In this document: positions 1,690-41,813 of the stretch, in pieces
Numbering within the stretch: position 1 is the stretch's first letter
How the letters are laid out: every line of letters starts with the position of its first letter
Source: a virus
Direction: 5' to 3' (one strand)
DNA length: 41,813 nucleotides
Virus record (IMG/VR): IMGVR_UViG_3300040806_000308
Span: 1 to 41,813 of that record
Notes under the pieces: generated by a model
The model's input: the letters and a program-made list of their open reading frames with translations, nothing else
The model's database searches: none
Told to the model about the DNA's origin: nothing
Made by a program: the position numbers and the translations under genes

Positions 1690-2080
1690 CTTCATACTCC
1701 CCTTCGATAACATGCATCTCTTTGGCGGGAAGTATAAATAGGCCCTGTGAGCCTTGGACATCAACTTCAAGTTTATCTTTTTTACCTAGGCCCACACGGT
1801 CTAAAAGGGTCTGTGCGGCCTGTAGGCGAATGTTAGCCTGAGGCAATGGGTTATCACTAGTAACCATCTCAACGACCTTCATAGCGGCTTGTGGGGCGCT
1901 TGAGGCCATGATATTCTCTGCGATCTCGATTATTTCTTTTCGCAGGCCCTTTGCAATGGTGGTGTAGGAGCCTGGGGCATAGCCTGCAAGCTCTGCCGCT
2001 TCTTTTAAGTTACCATTACAACTAACAATGTTATCTAAGAATGTTTGTTGTTTGGTAGTTAATTCTTTTTTATTGTTCAT
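1679..2080 (-). CDS. terS: Putative small terminase subunit (TerS)
   Basis: 133 residues. The N-terminus (LTTKQQTFLDNIVSCNGN, then EAAELAGYA) matches the helix-turn-helix start typical of small terminase subunits, which recognise phage DNA and hand it to TerL. The gene is first in the leftward set, directly followed by the HTH protein and TerL, which supports the call. The ATG (2080-2078) sits 7 bases after a perfect TATAAT on the minus strand and has no Shine-Dalgarno sequence. The mRNA is therefore predicted to be leaderless or nearly so. No better downstream start exists before residue 58. Oligomerisation and TerL-binding parts cannot be identified by eye. Confidence 0.8.
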   Translation of the reverse strand: MNNKKELTTKQQTFLDNIVSCNGNLKEAAELAGYAPGSYTTIAKGLRKEIIEIAENIMASSAPQAAMKVVEMVTSDNPLPQANIRLQAAQTLLDRVGLGKKDKLEVDVQGSQGLFILPAKEMHVIEGEYEDAD

Positions 2081-2087
2081 GTATTAC

Positions 2088-2116
2088 ATTATAACGCTGG
2101 TTTACAGTTTTGTCAA
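2088..2116 (-). promoter_or_regulatory. Leftward sigma-70 consensus promoter
   Basis: On the minus strand: TTGACA (2116-2111), a 17-base spacer, TATAAT (2093-2088). Both hexamers are perfect consensus. The predicted start of transcription is at about 2081, on or next to the A of the terS ATG. It probably drives the terminase genes and what follows them. Confidence 0.88.
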
Positions 2117-2154
2117 GTCCTTTTTGACCGTTCGTCGGTTACACTTGACAAAAC
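2107..2154. promoter_or_regulatory. Inverted repeat linking the two divergent -35 boxes
   Basis: Perfect 12-base inverted repeat: GTTTTGTCAAGT (2107-2118) and ACTTGACAAAAC (2143-2154), separated by 24 bases. Each arm contains the -35 box of one divergent promoter. The symmetry may simply reflect two identical -35 regions back to back, or it may be an operator for one regulator acting on both promoters. Confidence 0.6.
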
Positions 2155-2173
2155 CTGTTTTTACCTGTATACT
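2145..2173 (+). promoter_or_regulatory. Rightward sigma-70 consensus promoter (early)
   Basis: TTGACA (2145-2150), a 17-base spacer, TATACT (2168-2173): perfect -35 and 5/6 -10. The start is predicted near 2180, giving an unusually long, highly structured leader of about 700 bases before the first rightward gene at 2895. It shares the control region with the leftward promoter. Confidence 0.88.
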
Positions 2174-2178
2174 ATATA

Positions 2179-2201
2179 GTGTAACGAAGGCCCCGTTACA
2201 C
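2179..2201. promoter_or_regulatory. Operator-like inverted repeat at the rightward start site
   Basis: GTGTAACG (2179-2186) and CGTTACAC (2194-2201), separated by 7 bases, overlap the predicted +1. A third copy of the half site, GTTACAC (2138-2144), abuts the rightward -35 box. Three half sites around -35 and +1 look like a repressor-binding layout. A short RNA hairpin at the transcript 5' end is the alternative. Confidence 0.5.
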
Positions 2202-2241
2202 CCATACATACCTGCCTCGGGCCATGAGGTATAGAGGCTTT

Positions 2242-2319
2242 AAAGCTGCGGAGAAATCTAGTAGACATCGAAGACCTTTGGAGAGGTAGTTCCAAAGCTG
2301 CGGCGGAAACTAGTGGACA
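2242..2319 (+). repeat. 26-bp imperfect direct repeat, two copies
   Basis: Copies at 2242-2267 and 2294-2319 match at 22 of 26 positions and both begin AAAGCTGCGG; starts are 52 bases apart. A related partial copy (AAGCTGCGGCC) lies at 2812-2822, inside the spacer of the promoter at 2807. Possible protein-binding iterons; function unknown. Confidence 0.6.
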
Positions 2320-2806
2320 ACCGCAACTGGCTCAAATTGTATACCCATGTATATATATACCATGGTCCCCCCCTGGCCTCCTGCCCACCCCTCCAAAGTC
2401 TCTAAAGACTTTGACATCTCCAGAAATCCTTATAGGATTTATCACCCATTGCGCCCATGTAAAAAATCTATAAAGATTTTTTTAAATTTCTCGAAAAGGC
2501 TCCAAAGTCTAGTAAGACTTTGAGGCCCCCTTCTAAAATTTCAAAGAAATTTCTAGTTGACTGGCTCCAGAGACTGTAAAAATCTTTAAAGAATTTAAAG
2601 ATTTTTAAAAACTTCTCTAAATTTTTTAAGTATTTAAAAAATTAACCCCACGCACACGCTACGAGAATCTCCAGAATCTCTCCATCCTTACAGGATGAGG
2701 AACCCCCTTTAAAATATTCTTCGAATATTTCTTGTTTTCTTCGCCTGTTTCAGCGCGAATTCCTTCGGAATTTTCCTGTGTGAGAAATCGCCCAGGAAGA
2801 AAAGTG

Positions 2807-2855
2807 TTGACAAGCTGCGGCCAAACCAGCCATAGTGGAATGGCATCGGCGGCAA
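2807..2855 (+). promoter_or_regulatory. Promoter module, copy 1
   Basis: TTGACA (2807-2812), 18 bases, CATAGT (2831-2836), followed by GGAATGGC and CGGCAA. The module is repeated at 4065-4112 with the same order and spacing of shared blocks (TTGACAAGCTG, TGGAATGGC, CGGCAA). It would drive the gene at 2895. The -10 matches consensus at only 4/6 positions; conservation between the two copies is the stronger evidence. Confidence 0.65.
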
Positions 2856-2877
2856 GCGGCCTTCGATCACACTCAAA

Positions 2878-2892
2878 CAATTCGGAGAATTG
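2878..2892 (+). promoter_or_regulatory. Hairpin presenting the ribosome-binding site in its loop
   Basis: CAATTC-GGA-GAATTG forms a perfect 6-bp stem with a 3-base loop, ending 2 bases before the ATG at 2895. The Shine-Dalgarno bases GGAG (2884-2887) are the loop plus the first stem base. Folding would partly mask the site, so translation may depend on structure or a bound protein. Confidence 0.6.
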
Positions 2893-2894
2893 CT

Positions 2895-3386
2895 ATGAAC
2901 GATACCTACGCTAATGTCCCTGGCAACAAAGTTGCAACCTACAAGCAACTCAAAGCCCTTGGCTTTCGGTTCGCAAAGCTCCATGGCTCCGACAATACCT
3001 ACGGTATGTCGAAGGTCTTCACGGCCATTCTGGTTAAATACCAGAATGAAAACCCTAAGACGCCTCTAACCCACACCGATGTTCAGAACTTCTTCGAAGT
3101 TCAGGAGATTCCTGCCAAATTTGTGAAACAAATTAAAATCAAGCCGAAGGCTTCCAAGACTGTTGCCAAGGTGACGAAAGTCACCAAGACCAAGCCGAAG
3201 GCTTCAGAGACTCCGAAGGAGTCAGAGGCTCCCAAGCCTTCGGCTTCTAGCCAGTCCGTCGAAGACTTCAAGAATTCTCTGAATTCTTTGAAGAACCGAG
3301 TGGTTGAAGTTGAAAAGCGCCAAGCTACGCTTGAAACCAAGTTTGACCTGCTCTGGGCCTTCGTCCAAGAAGAACTTGGCAAATAA
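2895..3386 (+). CDS. Early protein with basic linker and C-terminal coiled coil
   Basis: 163 residues, first rightward gene. The start is the ATG at 2895 with GGAG 7 bases upstream; an in-frame ATG at 2835 lacks a ribosome site and lies in the promoter. Residues 1-80 form a mixed domain I do not recognise. Residues 82-122 are a Lys/Pro/Ser/Thr/Ala linker with repeated KPKAS and KPSAS. Residues 125-163 form a probable coiled coil (EDFKNSLNSLKNRVVEVEKR). Eight short hairpins lie inside the coding sequence, several of them encoding the repeated linker peptides, so the linker may have grown by spread of the hairpin element. A nucleic-acid or host-factor binding role is a guess. Confidence 0.75.
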   Translation: MNDTYANVPGNKVATYKQLKALGFRFAKLHGSDNTYGMSKVFTAILVKYQNENPKTPLTHTDVQNFFEVQEIPAKFVKQIKIKPKASKTVAKVTKVTKTKPKASETPKESEAPKPSASSQSVEDFKNSLNSLKNRVVEVEKRQATLETKFDLLWAFVQEELGK

Positions 3387-3424
3387 GTCCCTTCGGGACT
3401 CTTTAAAGCCCCCTTCGGGGGGCT
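3386..3424 (+). terminator. Tandem hairpins, terminator-like
   Basis: AGTCCC-TTC-GGGACT (3386-3400) and AGCCCCC-TTCG-GGGGGCT (3407-3424) directly follow the stop codon of the upstream gene. The second has a UUCG tetraloop closed by C-G. Neither is followed by a good U-tract, so factor-dependent termination, transcript-end protection or processing is as likely as intrinsic termination. Confidence 0.55.
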
Positions 3425-3447
3425 AAATAAACTTAGCGGGAGTTATT

Positions 3448-4068
3448 ATGTATAACTTACATGCAACTGAAATTCAATCCTTTGCCCAGAAGTCTGCCGA
3501 TAATTTATTCCAAGTTATACTTATGGTGGCCCTAAGTATTCAGCAGCGATGGGATACCGTAGGTAAACAAATGGAAGATGTTAAGGCCAATGGTATTACT
3601 TCTAAATATTTATGGGGCAATAAAGTTAAAACTTATAAATACTTATTAACTAAAAAGCATTTTATATATGCTCAAGCCATGGCTGTTATTAATTCAAAGC
3701 ACGATAATGACACTAAAGCTTTGAAACTTATGGAGATTTTCCTTAGAGTAGATGGATTAGGTTTAGCTAAAGCTGGTTTTGTATGTCAATTATTTGCAGG
3801 TTTAGTTGGTTGTATTGATACTCATAATATTAGAATGTATCAATTAGATTCAAATAAACTTAAATATTCTAATAATATTAAATGTATTATAACTCGTAGA
3901 AGTAAAATTAATAGTTATATTAAACTCTGTGGGTTTATTGGCACCGAGAAACTTTGGAACAATTGGTGTAATTATTTGGCACTCCGCAATCCCAAGGCCT
4001 GGAAGGATGGTTATCATGTGAGCGCAGCCCACGTTGCATACGCTAAGGGCGAAGCCCTGGGGGGTTGA
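3448..4068 (+). CDS. Helix-hairpin-helix protein, DNA glycosylase-like
   Basis: 206 residues, ATG with GGGAG upstream. The middle (LRVDGLGLAKAGFVCQLFAG, then GCIDTHN) resembles the HhH-GPD core of base-excision glycosylases: a hairpin with GLGLAKA, followed by an aspartate in a D-x-H setting. The catalytic lysine seen in bifunctional glycosylases is not evident, so it may be monofunctional or only DNA-binding. Flanking parts are Lys/Asn/Tyr rich and the gene is more AT-rich than its neighbours, which hints at separate origin. It lies between two copies of the repeated promoter module; its stop TGA overlaps the TTGACA of the next promoter. Possible roles are DNA repair or attack on host DNA. 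Confidence 0.65.
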   Translation: MYNLHATEIQSFAQKSADNLFQVILMVALSIQQRWDTVGKQMEDVKANGITSKYLWGNKVKTYKYLLTKKHFIYAQAMAVINSKHDNDTKALKLMEIFLRVDGLGLAKAGFVCQLFAGLVGCIDTHNIRMYQLDSNKLKYSNNIKCIITRRSKINSYIKLCGFIGTEKLWNNWCNYLALRNPKAWKDGYHVSAAHVAYAKGEALGG

Positions 4069-4112
4069 CAAGCTGGACCGACCCGTGCTACCTTGGAATG
4101 GCTCGACGGCAA
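4065..4112 (+). promoter_or_regulatory. Promoter module, copy 2
   Basis: TTGACA (4065-4070), 18 bases, TACCTT (4089-4094) with an extended -10 TG at 4086-4087, then GGAATGGC and CGGCAA as in the copy at 2807. It would start transcription near 4101 and drive the operon beginning at 4143. Confidence 0.65.
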
Positions 4113-4142
4113 CACCATCAACACAACACGAGGATAACACAC

Positions 4143-4346
4143 ATGGATATTAACTTCAAGGTTTTTAATCGCTCTGTCATCATTCGTCGTCGTATTAAAC
4201 TTCGTCGGTTTGGTTTTGGCTCTGGTTCTTGTTTCAATAATGTTCATATGGGTAAATTGAGTATTTATATTCAACATCGTCGGTCCCGTGTTGTTGGCTT
4301 CCAAGCCATCGCCGATGACAAAGGCCGCGAATCTGTCGCGGTCTAG
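4143..4346 (+). CDS. Small basic protein, unknown
   Basis: 67 residues, ATG at 4143 preceded by GAGGA. An upstream in-frame start at 4065 would overlap the promoter and is rejected. The protein is rich in arginine (RRRIKLRR in the middle) and has no recognised domain. Its charge suggests nucleic-acid binding. It is the first gene after the second promoter module, a position typical of early host-takeover genes (inference). Confidence 0.65.
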   Translation: MDINFKVFNRSVIIRRRIKLRRFGFGSGSCFNNVHMGKLSIYIQHRRSRVVGFQAIADDKGRESVAV

Positions 4347-4359
4347 GGGGGATTAAACC

Positions 4360-4578
4360 ATGGAAGTATTCGATGCTATTCGCTTGGCCTTCGAAGTCTC
4401 AAAAGAAACTAAAGCCCCGTGCTATGTTACGAAAACTATTGACGGCGAGCATCAAGTATGGGATACTTCCATTGGTCCTGAAACTTTAGATATAGTTGTA
4501 GGTAAAACAAGTTTTAATGATGTACTAGAAGACGAGTGGGTTTTCAACTTCTTTGGTGAGGCACAAAACAATGACTAA
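4360..4578 (+). CDS. Small acidic hypothetical protein
   Basis: 72 residues, ATG with a G-rich ribosome site (GGGGGGA) 8 bases upstream. It is acidic, ends EAQNND, and has no recognised domain or membrane segment. Its last 8 bases overlap the start of the DUF932 gene (ATG inside ATGACTAA), so the two are probably translationally coupled. Confidence 0.7.
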   Translation: MEVFDAIRLAFEVSKETKAPCYVTKTIDGEHQVWDTSIGPETLDIVVGKTSFNDVLEDEWVFNFFGEAQNND

Positions 4579-30154: not shown

Positions 30155-33100
30155 TTATTCTCCAAGAATAATTTTAGTAATAGCATTAAGTAAACTAGCA
30201 GTAGTGCTAGAGCTTTGGTTGGCTGCGCTAGATTCATTACCAATAGCCGTAGCATAAAGAGTTGTTTTTCGATCTTCTTCACGCTCATAAGACTGTCTAA
30301 CATAATCAGCCTCATCACGCAGTTGCTGCCAAAGCTGTTGCTGTTCCATCATGTTCATGTTAAACAAATTCATAACGTTCTGTTGGTTGGCAGCATTAAT
30401 GGCTGCAGTATTAAAAGTGTTAGCCTGTCGGCGCCATGCAACGTCTGCCTGCTCAATAGCTTGGCGGTTAGAAACGTTGAATTGTTCACGCTGTTGTTCA
30501 AGCTGAGTGTTGAACTGATTAACAGAGTTAAGCATTTCAGCATTGGCCAGCGAAACCTGCGTAGCATTCTGAGCATTCTGCGCTGCAATGCGATTTTGTT
30601 CAGAAGCATTGAACTGGCCCATAGCGTTCACTTGAGATGCGTTAAACTGCTGAGTCTGAGAAGCTAGGCTAGCCATAAACTGATCAGCTTGTTGCTGGTT
30701 TGCAGCATTGAACTGACGAGCAGCATTCTCTGCAGCCTGATTAGACAACAAGGTCTGTTGCTGTTGTTGTTGATTCAACACTCGGGACTGCTGTTCGTTT
30801 TGCAGGTTTGCCATGTCCATCTGCAAAAAAGCTTGAGCGTTCTGAGCCGCAAGGCGCGTATTGGCATCAAGGTTTGCAAGGTCCATAGAGGCCATAGCCG
30901 TTGCATTCTGCATGATGGCCTGTTGATCGGCATCAAAGCTCTTAACCGTCATGGTCTGCATAAACTGACTGTTAGCCAACGCTGCCTGTTGATTGGCGTC
31001 GAATTGTTTCATGTCCAGATTAGCATCAATCTGTGCATTAAACATTGCAGCCTCTTGAGCATTCGAAAGGTTTTGGAGGCCCATCTGCTGTGCTAGCTGC
31101 GCGTTAACCTGAGCGGCCTGCATTTTCTTTTCGTAGGTTTGAAGCTCAGCGACGTTTTGGGCGCTCATGCTCTCAGAGTCTGCTTGATTCTTTGAAGTCA
31201 AGTTAGCTAGAGAGATTCGCTCTTCCATGCTTAGACGCGCAAGGTCGGCCTGCTGCTTAAGCTGCTCGTTCTGCGACATCACCTGAACATAGTTGTTTAG
31301 CTCTTGGAGCCGGAACTTGTTCTCTTCGGTGAAGTTTGCTGCATCTGCCGAAGCCCGCTCTTGAAGGTTTACAAGCTCCATTTGCTGTTCGTTAGCAAGG
31401 TTTGCAAGGTCCATCTGTTGAGCAAGCTGCGCATTAGTCTTGCGGAAATCAACAAGAGTATTGAGGTTTGCAAGGCGCGTCTGCTGCTCTGCGGTCATAT
31501 TGGCACGAGCAGTAGTATTCTTTTCGCTAAGCTCCGTCAATTCAACACGAAGAGCCGCATCAAGGTTAGCGGCATCAGCCTGTTGATTCAGTTCGGCCTG
31601 TCGAATCTTTCGATTGATCTGGGCGTTATAGGAGGTTAGGCGGGCCTGTTGATCGGCATTAAGGTTTTCGGAGCCTGCGCGATTCAGGGCCTCAAGGTTT
31701 GCAAGATCAGTCTGTTGTTGTTGAGAGAACGACTGAGTAATAATTTGCTGCTTGAGTTGTGCGTTCTGCGAAGCCTCTTGGAGCCGTGCATTAAGGTTTG
31801 CAAGTTCAGCCTGCTGCTGAGTATTTAAGTTATCAGCAGAGGCTTGGTTCAATGCAGTGAGGTTTGCAAGAGTAATCTTTTCACGAGAACTAAGGTTAGC
31901 CAACTCAGCCTGTTGGCGCAACTGGGTATTTTCGGACATAACCTGCGCATAGGTCTGAAGGCGCGTAAGCTCCATCCGGTTAGCTTCAGTGAAGTTTGCA
32001 GAATCTGCAGCAGCTTTTTCAGACAGATTAGCCAATCGAATCTGTTGATCATTAGACAGGTTGGCCATATCCATCTGCTGAGCCAACTGAGCATTAGTCT
32101 TCTTAAAATCAACAAGAGTCTGAAGGTTAGTCAGCCGCTCTTGGTTTTGAGCCGTCATAGTATCACGGGCTGCGGCATTCTGTTCAGACAGATTAGCCAA
32201 CTCAACCTGAAGACCCGTACTAAGATTAGCCTTCTCCATGTCCTGTTTTAGTTCAGCTTGGCGCATGGTGCGGTTGATTTGAGCCTGATAGGTAGCTAGG
32301 CGCAATTGTTGTTCGGCACTTAGGTTCTGGCCCGCAGCAGCATTGATGGCCTGAAGATTTGCAAGGTCCATCTGCTGAGCAGCACTAAGGTTCTGAACAG
32401 CCGCTTGCTGGCGCTGAGCAGATTCTTGTTGTGCTTGTTGTTGTTCGAACTGGGCTTGAGTAATTCGGGTTTGTTGTTCTTGTTGAGCAGTCAACATCCC
32501 GGCCTGCTGGCGGAACTCACCGGCCTGAACCTTAATCTGTTGAGCCATCTGAGCGGTCTGAGAAGCAGCCGTCTGGCGGTTAGAAAGGTTTTGAAGGCGC
32601 AGGTTAGCAATCTGTTGTGATTGAGCCAAATTAGCCTGTTGTTCGTTAGATAGGTTTTGAGAGGCACGTTGTTGAAGAGCCTGTGCGTTGCTTTGAGCAA
32701 TAGGCAAAGCACTCTGAATGATTGCATTAAACAATGCATCACGACCAACAGTAGAGGCGCTGAGACCCCTTTGAGCCATTTGTTGTTCGATAGCTGCAAC
32801 AGCCGGTCGGGCCCAAGCGGGCGTCTGGCCGTCTTCAAGACCCGCCAACAATCCTTCCATCTGAGTAGAAACAAGAGCCTCTTCAGGAAGAGCCGCAATG
32901 GCTGCAGGGACTTCGGGGTCAGCCCCGGTATCCAACTGAGCTTCGACAACTGCGGGGTCTTCGGTAAGAGCTGCCGTAACTTCCGGGGGCATTTCAACCA
33001 CTACGGTTGCCATATCGGCTGCGGCCATCTTGCGGGACTGGCCCGTTACGGCTTGCATCGAAGCGGCCTGGGCCGTAGGAATACCGCCGATCTGGGCTGC

Positions 33101-35218
33101 ATCACCCCTCGGAGCCTCTCCAAGAATTGCTTGGCGCCCTTCAAGATCAACAGCCGGTTGGCCACCTAGTTGTTGAGCAATGCCCTGAGCGGCTTCTGCA
33201 ACCTGTGCAGTCCGCTGAGAAACAAGACCAAAGGTCGGAAGCTTATCAAGATCAGTTTGTTCTGCAATGGCCTGAGGGGAACTAGAGGCCGTAATGGCTT
33301 GGCGACTAGCGGCCTGAGCCTGTCGAACAGATTCCATCTGAGCGGCTTCGGGGGCCGAAACACCCAAAGTCGTATAGGCTTCGCGGCGAGCAGGTGCCAA
33401 ATCTTCAAAGGTGCCGATTTGGGTTGCGGCCATTTCGGGCGTAGGACCAGCTTCAATGAATTGTGCTTGAGCCGCTTGAGCCTCAGGAGCTTGTCCAAGC
33501 ATGTCGCGGTATTGAGCCGTGGCGGCCTCACCTTGTTGAGCAACACGCTTTTGAATAACGTCCTTATATTCAGGAAGGTCTTGGAGGTTAATACCTCGTC
33601 CCTGAGCAATTTGACCTAGGCGCCCTACTTCGGCTTTAGAGATCGTAGCGCCTTCTCGCGTAATAACTGCGGGGCCTTCGATGTCTGCAACTTGAGCAGC
33701 AACGCCGCCCGTTACAGCTTCAGCATAGTCACGGGCTTCGGGACGCTGAGCGGCTTGAGCCATGGCAGCTTGTTCTGCGGCAGCATCGCGCTTAGCAGCA
33801 ACAGCAGGCTGAGTAATGGTGCCAGCATCAACAGAAGCCAAGGCTTGTTCACTTACTTGGCCCGTGGCGGCTTCCATGGCCGGAGCGGCTTCAGTGGCAG
33901 CAGCTTCCATGGTGGCTGCATTTACTTCTGCCGGAGCCTTTGCTTGAGCTACTTTACTCATACCTGCTTTAGCAAGGCCTACTTTGGCTTGGGAGGCTTC
34001 TACGGGCGCCTGAGCTTCCATCTGATATGCCGTAGAAGCGGGGCCTGCCTCAACCTGTGCAAGGTTAGCCGTATCAATTTGAGGGGTCTCTACAGCCGCT
34101 GGACGCCCCATGTAAGCCTGAGAAGCAGGATCACCCAAACCAGTAGGTGCGGGTTTTTTATCAGGAGTTTCTACCATAGTCGTCGTTCCAGGTTGTGTAG
34201 TTAAATCCTCTTGTACGGGTTCTTCTTCAAGAAGGGCATCAGCAGCTAGACCGGCGGCTCCAAGGCCTACAGCGCCCTTTGCAAGCGTTCCTAGAAGGCT
34301 TCCAGAGGCTGCCGTACCTGCAACACCTGCGAGGCCCGCAGTAGCAGCACCGCCGCTTAATGCCGCAGGAGTAGCAGCCGCAGCAGCCCCAGGAATACCA
34401 GAAGCACCCACACCGGCCAACGTAGCCGCAATAGGCTGAGTAGCTATTGGAGACATAGCAGCCCCTGCAGGAGCAACAACACCACCAGCAACTGCGGGGA
34501 TTGCCGTAGACACAGGAGCCAACCCAGCCGTTGAGGTTGCAGGAGCCATAAGAGAACTAGCTACAGGGGCTTTAATGCCTGCTAAGGTTCCGCCCGTCGT
34601 TGCAGCCGTCCCGCCCGTAGTGCCTCCAGCCGTTGCAGTACCAGCGCCCCCAAGGGCACCGCCCGCCAACAGAATCCCGCCAGCCGTCAAGGCAAAGAGG
34701 CCCGCAGGCCCACCAAGCTTATCTACAACTTTACCAACTGCCGTACTAGTATCACGGTATGCGCGGTTTTCAGGAAGATTCAACCACGCACCAAGGTTTT
34801 CTTTTAGGGTGTTGTATTCTTCGGGCGAAAGGCCTTGAGCAGCAACACCAGATTCTTTTAGAATTTGTTGTGAGCGCTTATCAATTAATGCTTGTTCTTG
34901 GCGAACCTCATCAGTAATAGGGCCCGTTTGAACCGGCTTAGGGTTTTCTTTGGTAGGAGGAACGTACTGGGTACCAGCCCCTTCAACAACTGGAGCAAAG
35001 TCACGAGCGCTTTGGGCACCGCCCGTCAAGTTATCAGCAATTGTTTTCTTGGCGGCTTGATCGGCACTGGAGGTAGTAGAGCCGGTGCTTGTTTTCTTAG
35101 AAGCTGCAATAACCTTTTGAATATTTGCAATCTGCTCAGGACTAAAAGTAGGCAAATTAATATTACCTATACCCCCAGTAAAATACCTTGCCCTCTTTGA
35201 GCCTTTCTTACGAGCCAT
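30155..35218 (-). CDS. Giant hendecad coiled-coil virion protein, 1687 aa
   Basis: Three parts are visible. Residues 1-165: soluble, basic start. Residues 166-330: Gly/Ala/Thr-rich hydrophobic region (LFALTAGGILLAGGALGGAG). Residues 335-830: Ala/Gln/Pro-rich. From about 835 to 1640 the sequence falls into an unbroken 11-residue (hendecad) pattern rich in Gln, Asn and Ala with recurring ANLS/ANLT motifs. Landmarks recur every 55 residues, and a 220-residue block (near 948-1167) is repeated in tandem (1168-1387). Hendecads form straight or right-handed helical bundles. Probably a long rod or channel in the virion or ejection apparatus, the membrane part entering the inner membrane (inference). 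It has its own promoter candidate; ATG with GGAG upstream. Confidence 0.78.
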   Translation of the reverse strand: MARKKGSKRARYFTGGIGNINLPTFSPEQIANIQKVIAASKKTSTGSTTSSADQAAKKTIADNLTGGAQSARDFAPVVEGAGTQYVPPTKENPKPVQTGPITDEVRQEQALIDKRSQQILKESGVAAQGLSPEEYNTLKENLGAWLNLPENRAYRDTSTAVGKVVDKLGGPAGLFALTAGGILLAGGALGGAGTATAGGTTGGTAATTGGTLAGIKAPVASSLMAPATSTAGLAPVSTAIPAVAGGVVAPAGAAMSPIATQPIAATLAGVGASGIPGAAAAATPAALSGGAATAGLAGVAGTAASGSLLGTLAKGAVGLGAAGLAADALLEEEPVQEDLTTQPGTTTMVETPDKKPAPTGLGDPASQAYMGRPAAVETPQIDTANLAQVEAGPASTAYQMEAQAPVEASQAKVGLAKAGMSKVAQAKAPAEVNAATMEAAATEAAPAMEAATGQVSEQALASVDAGTITQPAVAAKRDAAAEQAAMAQAAQRPEARDYAEAVTGGVAAQVADIEGPAVITREGATISKAEVGRLGQIAQGRGINLQDLPEYKDVIQKRVAQQGEAATAQYRDMLGQAPEAQAAQAQFIEAGPTPEMAATQIGTFEDLAPARREAYTTLGVSAPEAAQMESVRQAQAASRQAITASSSPQAIAEQTDLDKLPTFGLVSQRTAQVAEAAQGIAQQLGGQPAVDLEGRQAILGEAPRGDAAQIGGIPTAQAASMQAVTGQSRKMAAADMATVVVEMPPEVTAALTEDPAVVEAQLDTGADPEVPAAIAALPEEALVSTQMEGLLAGLEDGQTPAWARPAVAAIEQQMAQRGLSASTVGRDALFNAIIQSALPIAQSNAQALQQRASQNLSNEQQANLAQSQQIANLRLQNLSNRQTAASQTAQMAQQIKVQAGEFRQQAGMLTAQQEQQTRITQAQFEQQQAQQESAQRQQAAVQNLSAAQQMDLANLQAINAAAGQNLSAEQQLRLATYQAQINRTMRQAELKQDMEKANLSTGLQVELANLSEQNAAARDTMTAQNQERLTNLQTLVDFKKTNAQLAQQMDMANLSNDQQIRLANLSEKAAADSANFTEANRMELTRLQTYAQVMSENTQLRQQAELANLSSREKITLANLTALNQASADNLNTQQQAELANLNARLQEASQNAQLKQQIITQSFSQQQQTDLANLEALNRAGSENLNADQQARLTSYNAQINRKIRQAELNQQADAANLDAALRVELTELSEKNTTARANMTAEQQTRLANLNTLVDFRKTNAQLAQQMDLANLANEQQMELVNLQERASADAANFTEENKFRLQELNNYVQVMSQNEQLKQQADLARLSMEERISLANLTSKNQADSESMSAQNVAELQTYEKKMQAAQVNAQLAQQMGLQNLSNAQEAAMFNAQIDANLDMKQFDANQQAALANSQFMQTMTVKSFDADQQAIMQNATAMASMDLANLDANTRLAAQNAQAFLQMDMANLQNEQQSRVLNQQQQQQTLLSNQAAENAARQFNAANQQQADQFMASLASQTQQFNASQVNAMGQFNASEQNRIAAQNAQNATQVSLANAEMLNSVNQFNTQLEQQREQFNVSNRQAIEQADVAWRRQANTFNTAAINAANQQNVMNLFNMNMMEQQQLWQQLRDEADYVRQSYEREEDRKTTLYATAIGNESSAANQSSSTTASLLNAITKIILGE
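30300..32716 (-). repeat. Hendecad-encoding repeats with 660-bp tandem duplication
   Basis: 33-bp (11-codon) periodicity throughout; 165-bp (55-codon) super-repeats marked by QLAQQMDMANL, QLRQQAELANL, QLKQQADLARL and relatives; and a 660-bp tandem duplication, copy 1 about 32374-31715 and copy 2 about 31714-31055. The spacing between matching codons of the two copies is exactly 660 bases. Confidence 0.85.
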
Positions 35219-36858: not shown

Positions 36859-39800
36859 TTAGTTTGCCTCCAGTGCTGCGATGCGAGCTTCAAGCTCTTT
36901 GATGGTTGCTACAAGTAAGGGCACCAACTTGGACTGGTCAATGCCCTGATAGATCGGATTGCCTTCGTCGTCTACTGCGTCCTTCTCGCCCGTAATAGCC
37001 TCAGGGACAACGCTTTGAACCTCATGGGCAAGGAAGCCATCCACGGTCTTGTCAGGGTCAGCGATGAAATTAAACCGGCTGGGCTTGAGCTGCTTTAGCC
37101 GCTCCGTCGCTCCCGTGATTTCCACCACGTTTTCTTTTAGGCGGTAGTCGGAGGAGGTGTTGTAGGAGGTTGATGAAGTATTAAAAGTTATACTGCCAAC
37201 TTGGGTTGCGTTATATTGATCAAAGAAACGCATCGCGACTTGAGAATAACTAAACGCATTTCCAGAGCAGACAATGCCATATTGAGTTGATGCGCTCAAA
37301 TAACCATAAACAGCAAGCCTATCGACAAAATAATTAGCTAATGAGGCATCCCCAAGAGTTGCTCGGCCAGAAGCATTAACAATAAATCGCGGATTCCCAT
37401 CCCCATCCGACAGCACGATGTTGTTGCTGGAGGTGCGGATATCGAGACCGCCTTGGTTGCCGTTGTAGCGACCGAGGATGGTGTTACCGGCGCCGGTCGT
37501 TATTTGCTGGCCTGCCTGCTGACCAACAAACGTATTAGTGCCGCCTGTGGTGAAATAGCCGCAAGAATTACCTAAAAATGTGCTGTATTGTCCAGTCGTG
37601 TTGTTATATCCAGCCTGATGACCAACAGCCGTGTTGTAAGAGGCGGTGGTGTTGGACTGAAGCGCGTAATACCCATAGGCCGTGTTGTAAGAGCCGGTCG
37701 TGTTTTGGTACAGCGTACCGTAACCAAAGGCGTCGTTATTTGCGCCGGTAGTGTTGCCTTCCAAGGCGAAATAACCAAAAGCGTTATTGTTACTAGCGGT
37801 GGTGTTGGATGCAAGGGCTTGGCGGCCTACTGCAACGTTGCTACTGCCAGTAGTATTAACCTCAAGCGCAGAGCGACCCAAGGCGACGTTGCTCGTCCCG
37901 GTCGTGTTGAGCTGCATGGCGTTGATGCCGACAGCGACGTTATTATCCGCCGTGTTTGCTCCAAGGGCGTCTTGGCCGATAGCGACGTTGTAGTTTCCCG
38001 AGACATTGGCGTCTAGCGCCTGAAGGCCAACAGCAGTATTGCCCAAGCCGATAGTGTTTGACGCCATAGCAGACTTGCCGATGGCCGTGTTGCTTACTCC
38101 GGTGGTGTTTGCAGTTAGCGCCTGATGCCCCACTGCCGTGTTGTTTGAGGCGGTTGTGTTGGAGGAAAGGGCCTCGCGCCCAATAGCTATGTTGTAGTTT
38201 CCTTCCGAGTTTGCATAAAGAGCCGCATGGCCCATTGCGACGTTTGAGTCACCTACGGTATTGGTAAACAGCGCCTGATAGCCAATACCGATATTGCGAG
38301 AAGCTGTAGTATTTGAACTTAGTGCTTGATAGCCCATACCTACATTGTATGAGCCAGTGGTATTTGCGTCTAAAGCTAGACCGCCAACAGCCACACTCTT
38401 CAAACCAGTCGTATTTGCGCCTAAAGCACTTCTGCCTATTGCGGTGTGATAGTCGCCGGTGGTGTTAGAGCTAAGAGCCGCATACCCCAAAGCGGTGTTG
38501 TTGCTGGCGGTGGTGTTGGCATTTAAAGCACTGTGACCAACGGCGGTGTTAAAATCGGCGGTAGTATTGGACTGTAAAGACCGATTTCCCACGGACACGT
38601 TATATCCGCCCGTGGTGTTGGAGTTTGACGACAAGTCACCAACGGCTACGTTTTCAAAACCAGTGGTATTACTTTGGAGCGTTCTTGCTCCTAGAGCAGT
38701 GCTGTAAGTGTCGCCGGAGTTGGCGTAAAGAGCTTGGTAACCAACTGCGGTTAGAAGTTGTCCAGTAGTGTTTGAATAAAGCGACTGATAACCAACTGCC
38801 GTGTTACTAGGGCCGGTGGTGTTGAAACGTAAAGAGGCATCGCCAATGGCAGTGTTATACGAACCAGTCGTATTTGCCGCCATAGACACGTTACCCATAA
38901 CGGTATTGCTGGCCCCTGTCGTGTTGGTATTAAAGGCTTCGTTGCCTACCGCAGTGTTAGGGCCAGCAGTTGTGTTTTTGCCGGAAAGGTAACCAACAAA
39001 CACCTGACCTGTACCAGTTGCGTTTGCATACCCAGCCTGATATCCCACAGCCGTATTGCTGGAGGCGGTGGTATTGTTGTAGAGAGCGGAGTAACCAAGT
39101 GCCGTATTGGCGCTTGCTGTTGTGTTTGAAGCCAAAGCCCCAGAGCCAACAGCCACGTTCACTGAGCCAGTTGTGTTTGATTTAAGAGCCGCATTGGCGT
39201 TGCCAGCGTAGTACCCACCAACAGCAGTGTTACCGTTCCCTGTCGTGTTGGCGTTTAGTGCTTCTGCGCCCACTGCAACCAAACCAATGCCAGTCGTATT
39301 GCTATACCCAGCCTGATACCCCACAGCAGTGTTGTAAGAGGCAGTGGTGTTGGAGAAGAGCGCGTCACGCCCAAAAGCAGCGTTATTGTTTCCGGTTGTG
39401 TTGAAGCGAAGCGCGCGACTACCAAATGCAGAGTTCTCAGCGCCAGTGGTGTTAGCCTCCATTGCGCCATTCCCAACAGCAGTATTGTTTGCGCCAGTGC
39501 TATTTATAGCCAGCGCATAATTTCCAACACCTGTGTTTGAACCGCCTGTAAGGCTTCCACCACTAAGCGCCACATTTCCAAGCGCCACGTTGCTAGTCCC
39601 AACCGGATAGTTCCCATCCAGCTTGATCGTGCCGCCATCTACAGAAAGACCTGCCGCATTAGCCGTGCCTGAGAGGTAGAGGTCTTTGAAGCGTCCTGAT
39701 GTTCCAGAACGTCCTAAATCAATTGCTCCGTCTCTTGGTGTACCGTCAGCTTCAATAGGATATACAGCATCTAAACCATCATTAACGGCTAAAGCAGTAT

Positions 39801-41813
39801 CACCTCTACCAAATATAATTGAACCACCAACAACACCAATACTCCCCACCGTGGTGCCGTCTTTGCGGAACTGAACAATGGCACCGTCTGACAAACGGTT
39901 AAAATTCGCCGTTACGCCATCTCTTGCGACTGAAATCTTGTTAGATAAAATATTTACGCCTTCTCCAGACGATGACGTTTCTATAGAGCTATCAGTAGTC
40001 CCCACCAACAAGTTGCCGCTGGCATCGAGCCGCATGGCTTCGGCGTTGTTAGTGCCGAAGATTAATGGCGTGTTAGCACGGTTATAAACCCATGCGCTTG
40101 CGTCAGCGACACCGCCAAGGAGGCCGATATTAAAATTGCCGCCCGCAGCATTAGTGAAGCCCATGCCGGTGCCGGGGTCAGATACCGTTAGCCTATATCC
40201 CGGCGAACTCGTCCCAATCCCGACGTTGCCGCTGGAGTCGATGCGCATGCGTTCTGCCGCGCCGTTACCAGTAGCAAAGATAATGTCACGCAAAGCACCT
40301 GATGAGCGAGCCTGTAATATCAAGTGACCTGCTTCGTTGAATGGAGCTGAACCGCCTGCGCCTGTAGAATAAATAGCGCAATAGCCATCTGTTATATAAG
40401 CGTTTTGATCGTTAGCTGTTAAAAAGATAGGCGATCGCAACGACTCAGCACTCGCATCCCAGAAGAACTTCGGCGTCGTGCCCGTATCCTCATACAGCGA
40501 CACATCCCCGTTTGAGGCAACGCGGAAAGCGGTATTTGTCAGCGAGCCGTTTCTAAGCGCATAGTTTCCGCCGTCCACCACTTCGTAAAAGGTGTTTACG
40601 CCGGTTTCTTCTAGCGTAAGGATGACGGCAGTTGAGTTTTCTATCTTCAGCCCATCAGCCGTGACGGTGCCGGTTACGTCGATGCCGGTGGCGGTGGTTT
40701 GAAACTTCTGCGCATCATCGTAATAAACACGCACCGCACCATTAAGGTCGGCAGTTAAATAGTTTTCACCACCAGATGCGGACTGTAGGCGCAAGTTGGT
40801 AGCTTGAATTTTTAGCTCACCCGTCCCTGTTTCATTAATAATGCTGTGAGTGCCTGAGTGATAAATCTCTAGGTCCGACCCAGCACCGAAGATGGCCTTG
40901 TCGTTGTCGCCGAAGGTGATGTCCGCAGTGGTCGAGGCGCCTGCGAGGCTAACGCTACCGGTAGCAGTAAGCCCCGCAAAGCTCGGGCTGTCCGTCGTGG
41001 CAACGCCTTGGTTTAACGCTTTAACAGCCGCAATGTCCGCTAGCTCGCTGTCCATCAAGGCCCCAGCAGCCGTTACGTTAGCCGTATCAGTTACGTCAGC
41101 GCCTGCTTCAACGCCATCAAGCTTCGTGCCGTCAGCGGCTACGTCACGCCCATCAACCGTTCCGCCAACCGTAATGTTTCCGGTAGCGCTAACAGTCGTA
41201 AAAGAACCCGCAGCGGGAGTAGCGCCGCCAATGGTGGTGCCATCGATAGCGCCGCCGTTGATGTCTGCTGTGTCAGCAACAAGGCTATCAATGTTGGCAG
41301 TGCCATCAATGTATAGGTTTCGCCATTCCTTCGTAACGCTGCCTAAGTCGTAGGTGTCGTCTACATCGGGGAGAATATGGCTGCTAACATCAGCAGAAAA
41401 ACTAACAGTGTCGGTATCGGCATCACCAAACGTAAGGTTTCCTGAGATGGTCGCGTCACCAGTAACAGTAAGGTTACCGCCAATAGACACGTTACCAGTA
41501 GTTGTGATAGCATCGATATAACCTGCGGACCAATAGTTTGAAGAGTCTCCAAGCGTATAGGTACTGTCGGCACTTGGAATAAAATTAGAACTAACATCAG
41601 CCGTAATGGTTACGGTATCCGTTGCGGCGTTACCAATGGTCGTATTGCCGTTAAGAACAGTGTTTCCTGCAACCGTAAGATTGTTGCTTAGGGTTGCGGC
41701 GCCCGTAATGGTTGCAGTTTCATCAACAACAAGGGCATCTACCTTGGCCGTCCCGTCCAGATAAAGGTTTTTAAACTCTAAAGAACTCGTACCCAGATCA
41801 ATGTCATTGTCAG
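36859..41813 (-). CDS. Giant tail fibre with 17-aa repeats and S74 chaperone, 5' end outside
   Basis: At least 1650 codons; the frame stays open to the right edge. A GTG at 41490 is in frame but lies in the middle of homologous repeats, so the true start is outside. Order: beta-type fibre repeats (SIGGNLTVTGD, STYTLGD; 39540-41813); about 41 tandem 17-residue repeats of the form NTAVGxQALxxNTTGxx (37448-39537); a short linker; and a C-terminal intramolecular chaperone of the Peptidase_S74/endosialidase type beginning at SSDYRLKE (about 37150). That domain helps the trimer fold and then cuts itself off at the serine. It ends in a coiled coil (IKELEARIAALEA). Recognises the host surface. Confidence 0.9.
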   Translation of the reverse strand, partial: DNDIDLGTSSLEFKNLYLDGTAKVDALVVDETATITGAATLSNNLTVAGNTVLNGNTTIGNAATDTVTITADVSSNFIPSADSTYTLGDSSNYWSAGYIDAITTTGNVSIGGNLTVTGDATISGNLTFGDADTDTVSFSADVSSHILPDVDDTYDLGSVTKEWRNLYIDGTANIDSLVADTADINGGAIDGTTIGGATPAAGSFTTVSATGNITVGGTVDGRDVAADGTKLDGVEAGADVTDTANVTAAGALMDSELADIAAVKALNQGVATTDSPSFAGLTATGSVSLAGASTTADITFGDNDKAIFGAGSDLEIYHSGTHSIINETGTGELKIQATNLRLQSASGGENYLTADLNGAVRVYYDDAQKFQTTATGIDVTGTVTADGLKIENSTAVILTLEETGVNTFYEVVDGGNYALRNGSLTNTAFRVASNGDVSLYEDTGTTPKFFWDASAESLRSPIFLTANDQNAYITDGYCAIYSTGAGGSAPFNEAGHLILQARSSGALRDIIFATGNGAAERMRIDSSGNVGIGTSSPGYRLTVSDPGTGMGFTNAAGGNFNIGLLGGVADASAWVYNRANTPLIFGTNNAEAMRLDASGNLLVGTTDSSIETSSSGEGVNILSNKISVARDGVTANFNRLSDGAIVQFRKDGTTVGSIGVVGGSIIFGRGDTALAVNDGLDAVYPIEADGTPRDGAIDLGRSGTSGRFKDLYLSGTANAAGLSVDGGTIKLDGNYPVGTSNVALGNVALSGGSLTGGSNTGVGNYALAINSTGANNTAVGNGAMEANTTGAENSAFGSRALRFNTTGNNNAAFGRDALFSNTTASYNTAVGYQAGYSNTTGIGLVAVGAEALNANTTGNGNTAVGGYYAGNANAALKSNTTGSVNVAVGSGALASNTTASANTALGYSALYNNTTASSNTAVGYQAGYANATGTGQVFVGYLSGKNTTAGPNTAVGNEAFNTNTTGASNTVMGNVSMAANTTGSYNTAIGDASLRFNTTGPSNTAVGYQSLYSNTTGQLLTAVGYQALYANSGDTYSTALGARTLQSNTTGFENVAVGDLSSNSNTTGGYNVSVGNRSLQSNTTADFNTAVGHSALNANTTASNNTALGYAALSSNTTGDYHTAIGRSALGANTTGLKSVAVGGLALDANTTGSYNVGMGYQALSSNTTASRNIGIGYQALFTNTVGDSNVAMGHAALYANSEGNYNIAIGREALSSNTTASNNTAVGHQALTANTTGVSNTAIGKSAMASNTIGLGNTAVGLQALDANVSGNYNVAIGQDALGANTADNNVAVGINAMQLNTTGTSNVALGRSALEVNTTGSSNVAVGRQALASNTTASNNNAFGYFALEGNTTGANNDAFGYGTLYQNTTGSYNTAYGYYALQSNTTASYNTAVGHQAGYNNTTGQYSTFLGNSCGYFTTGGTNTFVGQQAGQQITTGAGNTILGRYNGNQGGLDIRTSSNNIVLSDGDGNPRFIVNASGRATLGDASLANYFVDRLAVYGYLSASTQYGIVCSGNAFSYSQVAMRFFDQYNATQVGSITFNTSSTSYNTSSDYRLKENVVEITGATERLKQLKPSRFNFIADPDKTVDGFLAHEVQSVVPEAITGEKDAVDDEGNPIYQGIDQSKLVPLLVATIKELEARIAALEAN
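37448..39537 (-). repeat. About 41 tandem 51-bp (17-aa) repeats in the fibre gene
   Basis: Consensus NTAVGYQALYSNTTGSY. All but a few units are exactly 17 codons; three are 16 codons, one carries a 7-codon insertion (GGYYAGNANAALKSN region), and the last lacks its end. Varying positions are 6-7, 10-11 and 16-17; N1, G5, A8 and N12-T-T-G are nearly fixed. The pattern suggests a beta-roll or triple-stranded beta-helix rod with one turn per unit. Confidence 0.9.

Follow-up and report, generated by a model that had tools for sequence, protein, structure and literature searches.

The window, i.e. the whole 41,813-nt stretch of viral DNA that was analysed, carries two divergent sigma-70 promoters next to the element described here. 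The leftward (late/TerS) promoter (2088-2116, minus strand) reads TTGACA-17-TATAAT, matches the consensus at all 12 positions and is kept in relatives, while the rightward early promoter (2145-2173, plus strand) reads TTGACA-17-TATACT (11 of 12). Downstream of the latter, and likewise on the plus strand, lies a conserved leader free of dense hairpins (2174-2393), in which AAGCTGCGG occurs twice alongside a TGTATATATATAC block and which is shared with relatives that have no array. It is followed by a row of short perfect hairpins. The non-coding part of this array (2394-2772, plus strand), delimited by hairpin count and matched by a homologous array in the related locus L006, has its hairpins at 2394-2413, 2424-2440, 2461-2482, 2503-2522, 2536-2552, 2577-2607, 2620-2643, 2683-2697, 2712-2730 and 2758-2772. 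A promoter-like site (2807-2836, plus strand; TTGACA-18-CATAGT, 10 of 12) precedes the gene, and a further plus-strand hairpin, CAATTC-GGA-GAATTG (2878-2892), whose loop contains the likely ribosome-binding site, adjoins the start codon. The array-linked gene itself (2895-3386, plus strand) encodes 163 aa, and the coding part of the array (2952-3288, plus strand), delimited by hairpin count and by its excess over synonymous-codon shuffles, has hairpins at 2952-2966, 3026-3048, 3086-3102, 3118-3134, 3141-3153, 3170-3185, 3192-3204, 3209-3223, 3234-3246 and 3270-3288. Two end hairpins on the same strand, AGTCCC-TTC-GGGACT (3386-3400) and AGCCCCC-TTCG-GGGGGCT (3407-3424), close the array. The next gene (3448-4068, plus strand), a neighbour outside the array, has an HhH-GPD / 8-oxoguanine-glycosylase-like fold.

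Two other features of the window may be mentioned here. The 9-mer AAGCTGCGG is found around the early promoters (at 2243, 2295 and 2812), with 5 occurrences in the window against 0.5 expected; it is kept in relatives both with and without an array and is a possible regulator site. On the minus strand there are two very long low-complexity proteins (30155-35218 and 36859-41490): one of 1687 aa, repetitive and rich in Q/A/N, for which PHROGs gave no match, and one of 1543 aa with repeats of the NTTG type.

An earlier note, made from the letters of the window, had described about 21 short perfect hairpins within 1 kb that cross from non-coding DNA into a gene, with nothing similar elsewhere. Hairpins with perfect arms of at least 6 nt and loops of 3-5 nt were counted by script over the full 41,813 bases and in dinucleotide shuffles. 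The region 2390-3424 contains 20 non-overlapping hairpins, where 200 shuffles averaged 1.09 and reached 4 at most, 27 once 5-bp stems are included, and 8 with stems of at least 8 bp (0.08 expected). Both halves are enriched (11 against 0.71 in the non-coding half, 9 against 0.47 in the coding half). The cluster is unique in the window, because the remainder (3425-41813) is near background with 37 hairpins against 29 expected. The comparison with shuffled sequence, which the note itself had proposed as a check, thus gave no comparable hairpin density at the same composition, and chance or composition is ruled out as the cause of the array both in the window and across the related loci described below. 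Smaller details agreed as well: the hairpins at 2394-2413 and 2503-2522 share the arm CAAAGTCT, no triloop is more frequent in the window than TTC and GAA, and hairpins encoding KPKAS or KPSAS peptides are present at 3141-3153, 3192-3204 and 3234-3246 (5-bp stems). One detail found no support, namely the terminator-like nature of the two end hairpins: both lack a T-run, and a terminator scan of the plus strand in 2000-4200 found no intrinsic terminator, i.e. no G+C-rich stem followed by a T-run. Rfam gave no match above the gathering score in 2050-4400.

The hairpins within the gene are not a by-product of its protein sequence. Codons were shuffled among identical amino acids in 36 loci (100 rounds), so that the protein and its codon use were preserved, and the coding region showed 116 hairpins with stems of at least 6 bp where the shuffles gave 17 (maximum 28), an approximately sevenfold excess. 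In the first 240 nt of the gene, which encode the folded domain, 61 hairpins were found against 8 in the shuffles. The KPKAS repeats can be ruled out as the cause on these grounds, the N-terminal domain being equally loaded with hairpins.

The 163-aa product is predicted to consist of a helical N-terminal domain (residues about 12-77, predicted with good confidence, 80-90), a disordered basic linker of the KPKAS type and a long C-terminal helix of coiled-coil character. It has no match in PHROGs or among solved structures, whether compared in sequence or in fold; against Pfam it gives weak coiled-coil-type scores only, with no detectable similarity to DNA-binding families. A tblastn search of 50,697 phage records with the protein of locus L034 detected no homologue of the gene, nor did the genome collection contain one. 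The protein family is new and has no known relatives outside this phage group. The next gene encodes an unannotated protein whose fold is that of a helix-hairpin-helix glycosylase (8-oxoguanine type) and which has an IDTHNIRMY motif; remote homologues of it occur in ParKuw1, Microcystis phage Mwe-JY26, CRP-9 and DSS3 phages.

Related loci were collected in several searches. The gene at 2895-3386 retrieved three close relatives and the next gene retrieved 40 loci; a detectable homologue of the former is present in 40 loci (the window and the loci of the first gene search counted), and the loci without one end before it. Two more searches with distant versions of the gene gave 87 loci, in which some contigs are repeated. 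The contigs are metagenomic, and since many loci are near copies, the main counts are based on a set of 37 non-redundant loci, where 146 perfect hairpins were found against 16 expected. Every locus that has the hairpin gene and sufficient upstream DNA carries an array, mostly with different stems. Typical groups have 5-14 hairpins (stems of at least 6 bp) per 800 nt and a few groups have 3-4, the expected number being 0.5-1.3. In five genomes scanned along their length the array is the sole strong hairpin cluster. As arrays recur in many independent metagenome contigs, an assembly artefact is an unlikely source.

The array follows the gene rather than its surroundings. Loci L009 and L011, which are relatives with 72-80% identity in a neighbouring protein, have the same promoter and, as far as the array, the same leader; other genes replace 2895-4068 there, and there is no hairpin array. 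Nor is there an array in the named phages ParKuw1, CRP-9 and DSS3_VP1, which share no more than a remote version of the next gene, and it is also absent from the named relatives HTVC115P, CRP-804, Eistla and SIO1. Because L009, L011 and the phages with remote homologues lack it, the array tracks gene 2895-3386 and not the promoter or the next gene. The collections searched contained no cultured phage of close similarity that has an array; it is a family of uncultured bacterial viruses that retains a row of tiny hairpins after its first strong early promoter and through the next gene.

Other repeats and palindromes were observed in the same set of loci. In L028 (3269-3392) a hairpin, AAGGCT-GTAA-AGCCTT, lies inside a 27-bp tandem repeat of five copies within the linked gene. 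One subgroup, represented by L034 (2413-2530 and 3940-3985), has long hairpins with arms of 18 to nearly 30 bp directly 5' of early genes, with the ribosome-binding site apparently within the stem; these could be RNase III sites or translation switches. In Microcystis phage Mwe-JY26 (L060, 2487-4429) G+C-rich palindromes of the form GGGGCGCGA...TCGCGCCCC are dispersed between genes, and they are copies of a single sequence, unlike the array.

The position of the array relative to transcription is very regular. In all 83 loci with enough flank, a sigma-70 promoter matching at 11-12 of 12 positions lies upstream of the gene and points at it, and a divergent leftward promoter lies near this early promoter. 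The array sets in some 200-300 nt past the near-perfect promoter, continues through the gene and then fades. Hairpins per kb, counted over the 37 non-redundant loci, number 0.4 at 200-600 nt to the left of the promoter, about 4 over the first 200 nt past it, 21.9 at +200 to +300, 14.7 in the remaining leader, 7.4 in the gene and thereafter 4.5 falling to 1.8. The array is thus limited to the rightward-transcribed side, to one transcription unit, and overlaps a coding gene, a layout that would suit an RNA as well.

It is natural to ask whether the hairpins act as RNA. As an RNA-level element, the first early transcript would be a chain of hairpins folding right behind the polymerase, which would block Rho loading, R-loops or nucleases, or would serve as the autoregulatory binding site of the linked protein. 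The orientation of the array downstream of a near-perfect promoter and its fading after the gene fit this explanation, as do the conservation of the stems and the ribosome-binding site that lies inside a hairpin in the window. The pairing statistics point the other way. Perfect stems are ninefold enriched, though in the 37 loci stems with one G-T pair number 21 against 25 expected and stems with one A-C pair 33 against 34; at seven pairs both types are enriched to the same degree, about twofold. There is thus no sign of G-U tolerance on the transcribed strand, and an excess of perfect stems without an excess of G-T or A-C stems is expected of DNA pairing, not of relaxed RNA pairing. Only loops of 3-4 nt (strongly) and 5 nt (weakly) are enriched as hairpins, and the longer loops typical of RNA are absent. 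Most loops are about as frequent as their reverse complements (GAA 5 and TTC 7, TTA 4 and TAA 4, CTAA 4 and TTAG 3), with some strand-biased exceptions (TAC 6 against GTA 0, TTTA 13 against TAAA 5). A preference for GNRA or UNCG loops is also missing, unlike in rRNA, where such loops outnumber their complements by a factor of 8-66 (PMC8794818). The missing G-U excess and the near symmetry of the loops are taken as evidence of constraint or repair at the DNA level; this is short of proof, because the layout of the array exactly matches one transcription unit. Selection for a heavily folded RNA, as the earlier note had suggested, has the confinement to one transcription unit in its favour, and the G-U pairs and the near symmetry of the loops against it. 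An RNA-level element, rather unlikely in itself, is a serious rival that we rank as nearly as likely as the DNA reading.

Grouping by inner arm and loop gives 166 unique non-coding hairpins, among which common motifs are short only, e.g. AAGACTT/AAGTCT. A repeat family of the REP, MITE or iteron type is ruled out, the stems being different and not copies of one sequence.

The stems are kept as pairs while their letters drift, in favour of the earlier note, which had proposed to compare related phages for such changes. In L006 the hairpin at 2536-2552, AAATTTC-AAA-GAAATTT in the window, reads AAATTAC-GAA-GTAATTT, and that at 2503-2522 has another stem, likewise perfect; the hairpin after the stop codon (3386-3400), with the loop TTC in the window, is replaced by TAACCC-AAA-GGGTTA in L005 and TAACCC-GAA-GGGTTA in L006. 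Between close pairs the stems change 2-4 times slower than the linkers (about 0.03 and 0.08 changes per site, respectively, at 90-95% identity). Among unique internal changes, compensated changes of one pair (9) and of two pairs (2) are about as numerous as single broken pairs (10), the cells of these pairwise counts not being independent events. Hairpin gains and losses between close relatives are few, and recent gains are rare.

The loops show a further pattern. At 2712-2730 the stem is the same in L006 and the loop TTC has become GAA, its exact reverse complement. Where the stem is the same and the loop differs, 10 of 21 changes, a small set, are exact inversions, against 1.25 predicted by random changes of the same size (P of about 0.0004 even under a null three times as generous). 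Inversions are seen even at 99.7% identity, where single flips between near-identical contigs could in part reflect population mixtures. Loop inversion together with coupled changes is the described footprint of template switching during DNA replication, inversions being rare in the cases described (PMC8794818). Both exact loop inversions and coupled double changes are found at the array, and a template-switch-like DNA process is active there.

One may then ask whether the array is simply a mutational hot spot, in which strong transcription and RNA-DNA hybrids promote template switching, so that small palindromes arise and become perfect without serving much purpose, if any. The inversions and double changes are the footprints that such a process leaves (PMC8794818), quasi-palindrome mutations are raised in highly transcribed yeast DNA with RNA-DNA hybrids (PMC3820800), and hairpin density drops with distance downstream. 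However, L009 and L011 have the same promoter and leader and no array, the stems evolve slowly and rarely arise anew, and the hairpins in the conserved coding domain exceed codon shuffles. We consider a hot spot without function improbable. The idea of the earlier note that some mechanism creates or spreads small palindromes is partly borne out by the inversions and double changes, but it leaves unexplained why relatives with the same promoter and without the gene have no array. It is still less probable, and in our view very much so, that the hairpins, as DNA or RNA, are decoys that titrate a host defence or nucleic-acid-binding protein: a sponge would profit from being expressed early and strongly and from its many heterogeneous copies, but no defence family was matched in the linked or neighbouring genes and a tight tie to one gene is not predicted. 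Finally, N4-type hairpin promoters that serve a virion RNA polymerase, suggested by the similar stem size and 3-nt loops (PMC4496689), are disfavoured to the point of being hardly credible, as no N4-type or T7-type RNA polymerase was found among the large and replication proteins searched (the record is perhaps incomplete), the triloops are mixed, with GNA about as common as its complement and not of the C(GNA)G type (PMC4496689), the stems have no conserved bases, and sigma-70 promoters are present.

What is conserved, then, is pairing rather than sequence, in an element of 10-25 perfect mini-palindromes (arms mostly 6-10 bp, loops 3-4 nt) that accompanies one new protein family. We tentatively propose, as a possibility to be held with some reserve, that it is a structure-defined element acting mainly as DNA, likely a replication origin or early assembly site bound by the linked protein. 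Strong early transcription and supercoiling would open the duplex, and the strands would fold into a row of hairpins, a structured and partly single-stranded platform for binding and loading. This platform would most likely be the phage replication origin or an early nucleoprotein assembly site, and its shape would be what the basic coiled-coil protein recognises. As the phage replicates, template switching would help to keep the stems perfect and would flip the loops, and broken stems would be eliminated by selection. Somewhat more readily, though still short of calling it probable, we speculate that the sequence-free array of mini-hairpins and the new, shape-recognising protein family form one unit perfected by template switching. 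The replication or packaging structure envisaged in the earlier note is compatible with the sequence data. A strong promoter followed by an A+T-rich region, as in a transcription-opened origin, is found at the array, which is among the A+T-richer parts of the window; the unwinding itself is putative. The GC skew also switches at the array, and this minimum is weak evidence because gene direction switches at the same place. Nor would the array be a universal origin of the phage group, because the array-less relatives presumably replicate.

It is useful to compare the array with known systems. The early promoters of phage N4 are alike in being small, perfectly paired DNA hairpins that have 3-nt loops, serve early and depend on structure, and the N4 hairpins extrude in vivo under gyrase (PMC4496689). 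They differ in that N4 has a giant RNA polymerase and three promoters whose bases are conserved in stem and loop, whereas the array has 10-25 mostly unrelated hairpins and consensus sigma-70 promoters, and no such polymerase was found. The T4 origins oriF and oriG resemble the array in that a promoter is followed by an opening A+T-rich region defined by structure and not by sequence (the opening of the array being putative), and oriF requires the promoter plus a downstream unwinding element (PMC3016281). The T4 origins, however, are about 100 bp long and have no described hairpin array. Together, N4 extrusion and T4 oriF make a DNA origin plausible, not proven.

Palindrome clusters of herpesviruses are linked to origins. 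They resemble the array as non-random groupings of palindromes in the genome of a DNA virus, and are the subject of a title cited in PMC13155455. Herpesviruses are unrelated to the viruses that bear the array. To our knowledge, they have no dense series of 6-10 bp mini-hairpins running through a coding gene. In lambda-type origins iterons lie within the initiator gene, and iterons are repeats of one sequence. The likeness is a cis element inside and beside the gene of its presumed binder; the difference is that the hairpins of the array share structure, not sequence. Loop inversion and compensatory changes are also known from template-switch hairpins (PMC8794818), and loop inversion from chloroplast hairpins. 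Those are scattered events, whereas here nearly half of the loop changes are inversions and they fall in one conserved array. We found no described element of this kind in the open-access literature, and none is known to us; the novelty of the array rests on its anatomy, its function being putative.

The array shows that a dense nucleic-acid structure can be evolutionarily kept while its sequence drifts, in non-coding as well as genic DNA, across a group of uncultured phages. Loops have flipped even between near-identical phages, which makes the array a natural setting in which to study how hairpins arise and persist through template switching. It also leads to a new protein family whose target is probably shape-specific. 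If the array were proven to be an origin, it would represent a new architecture for the start of phage replication.
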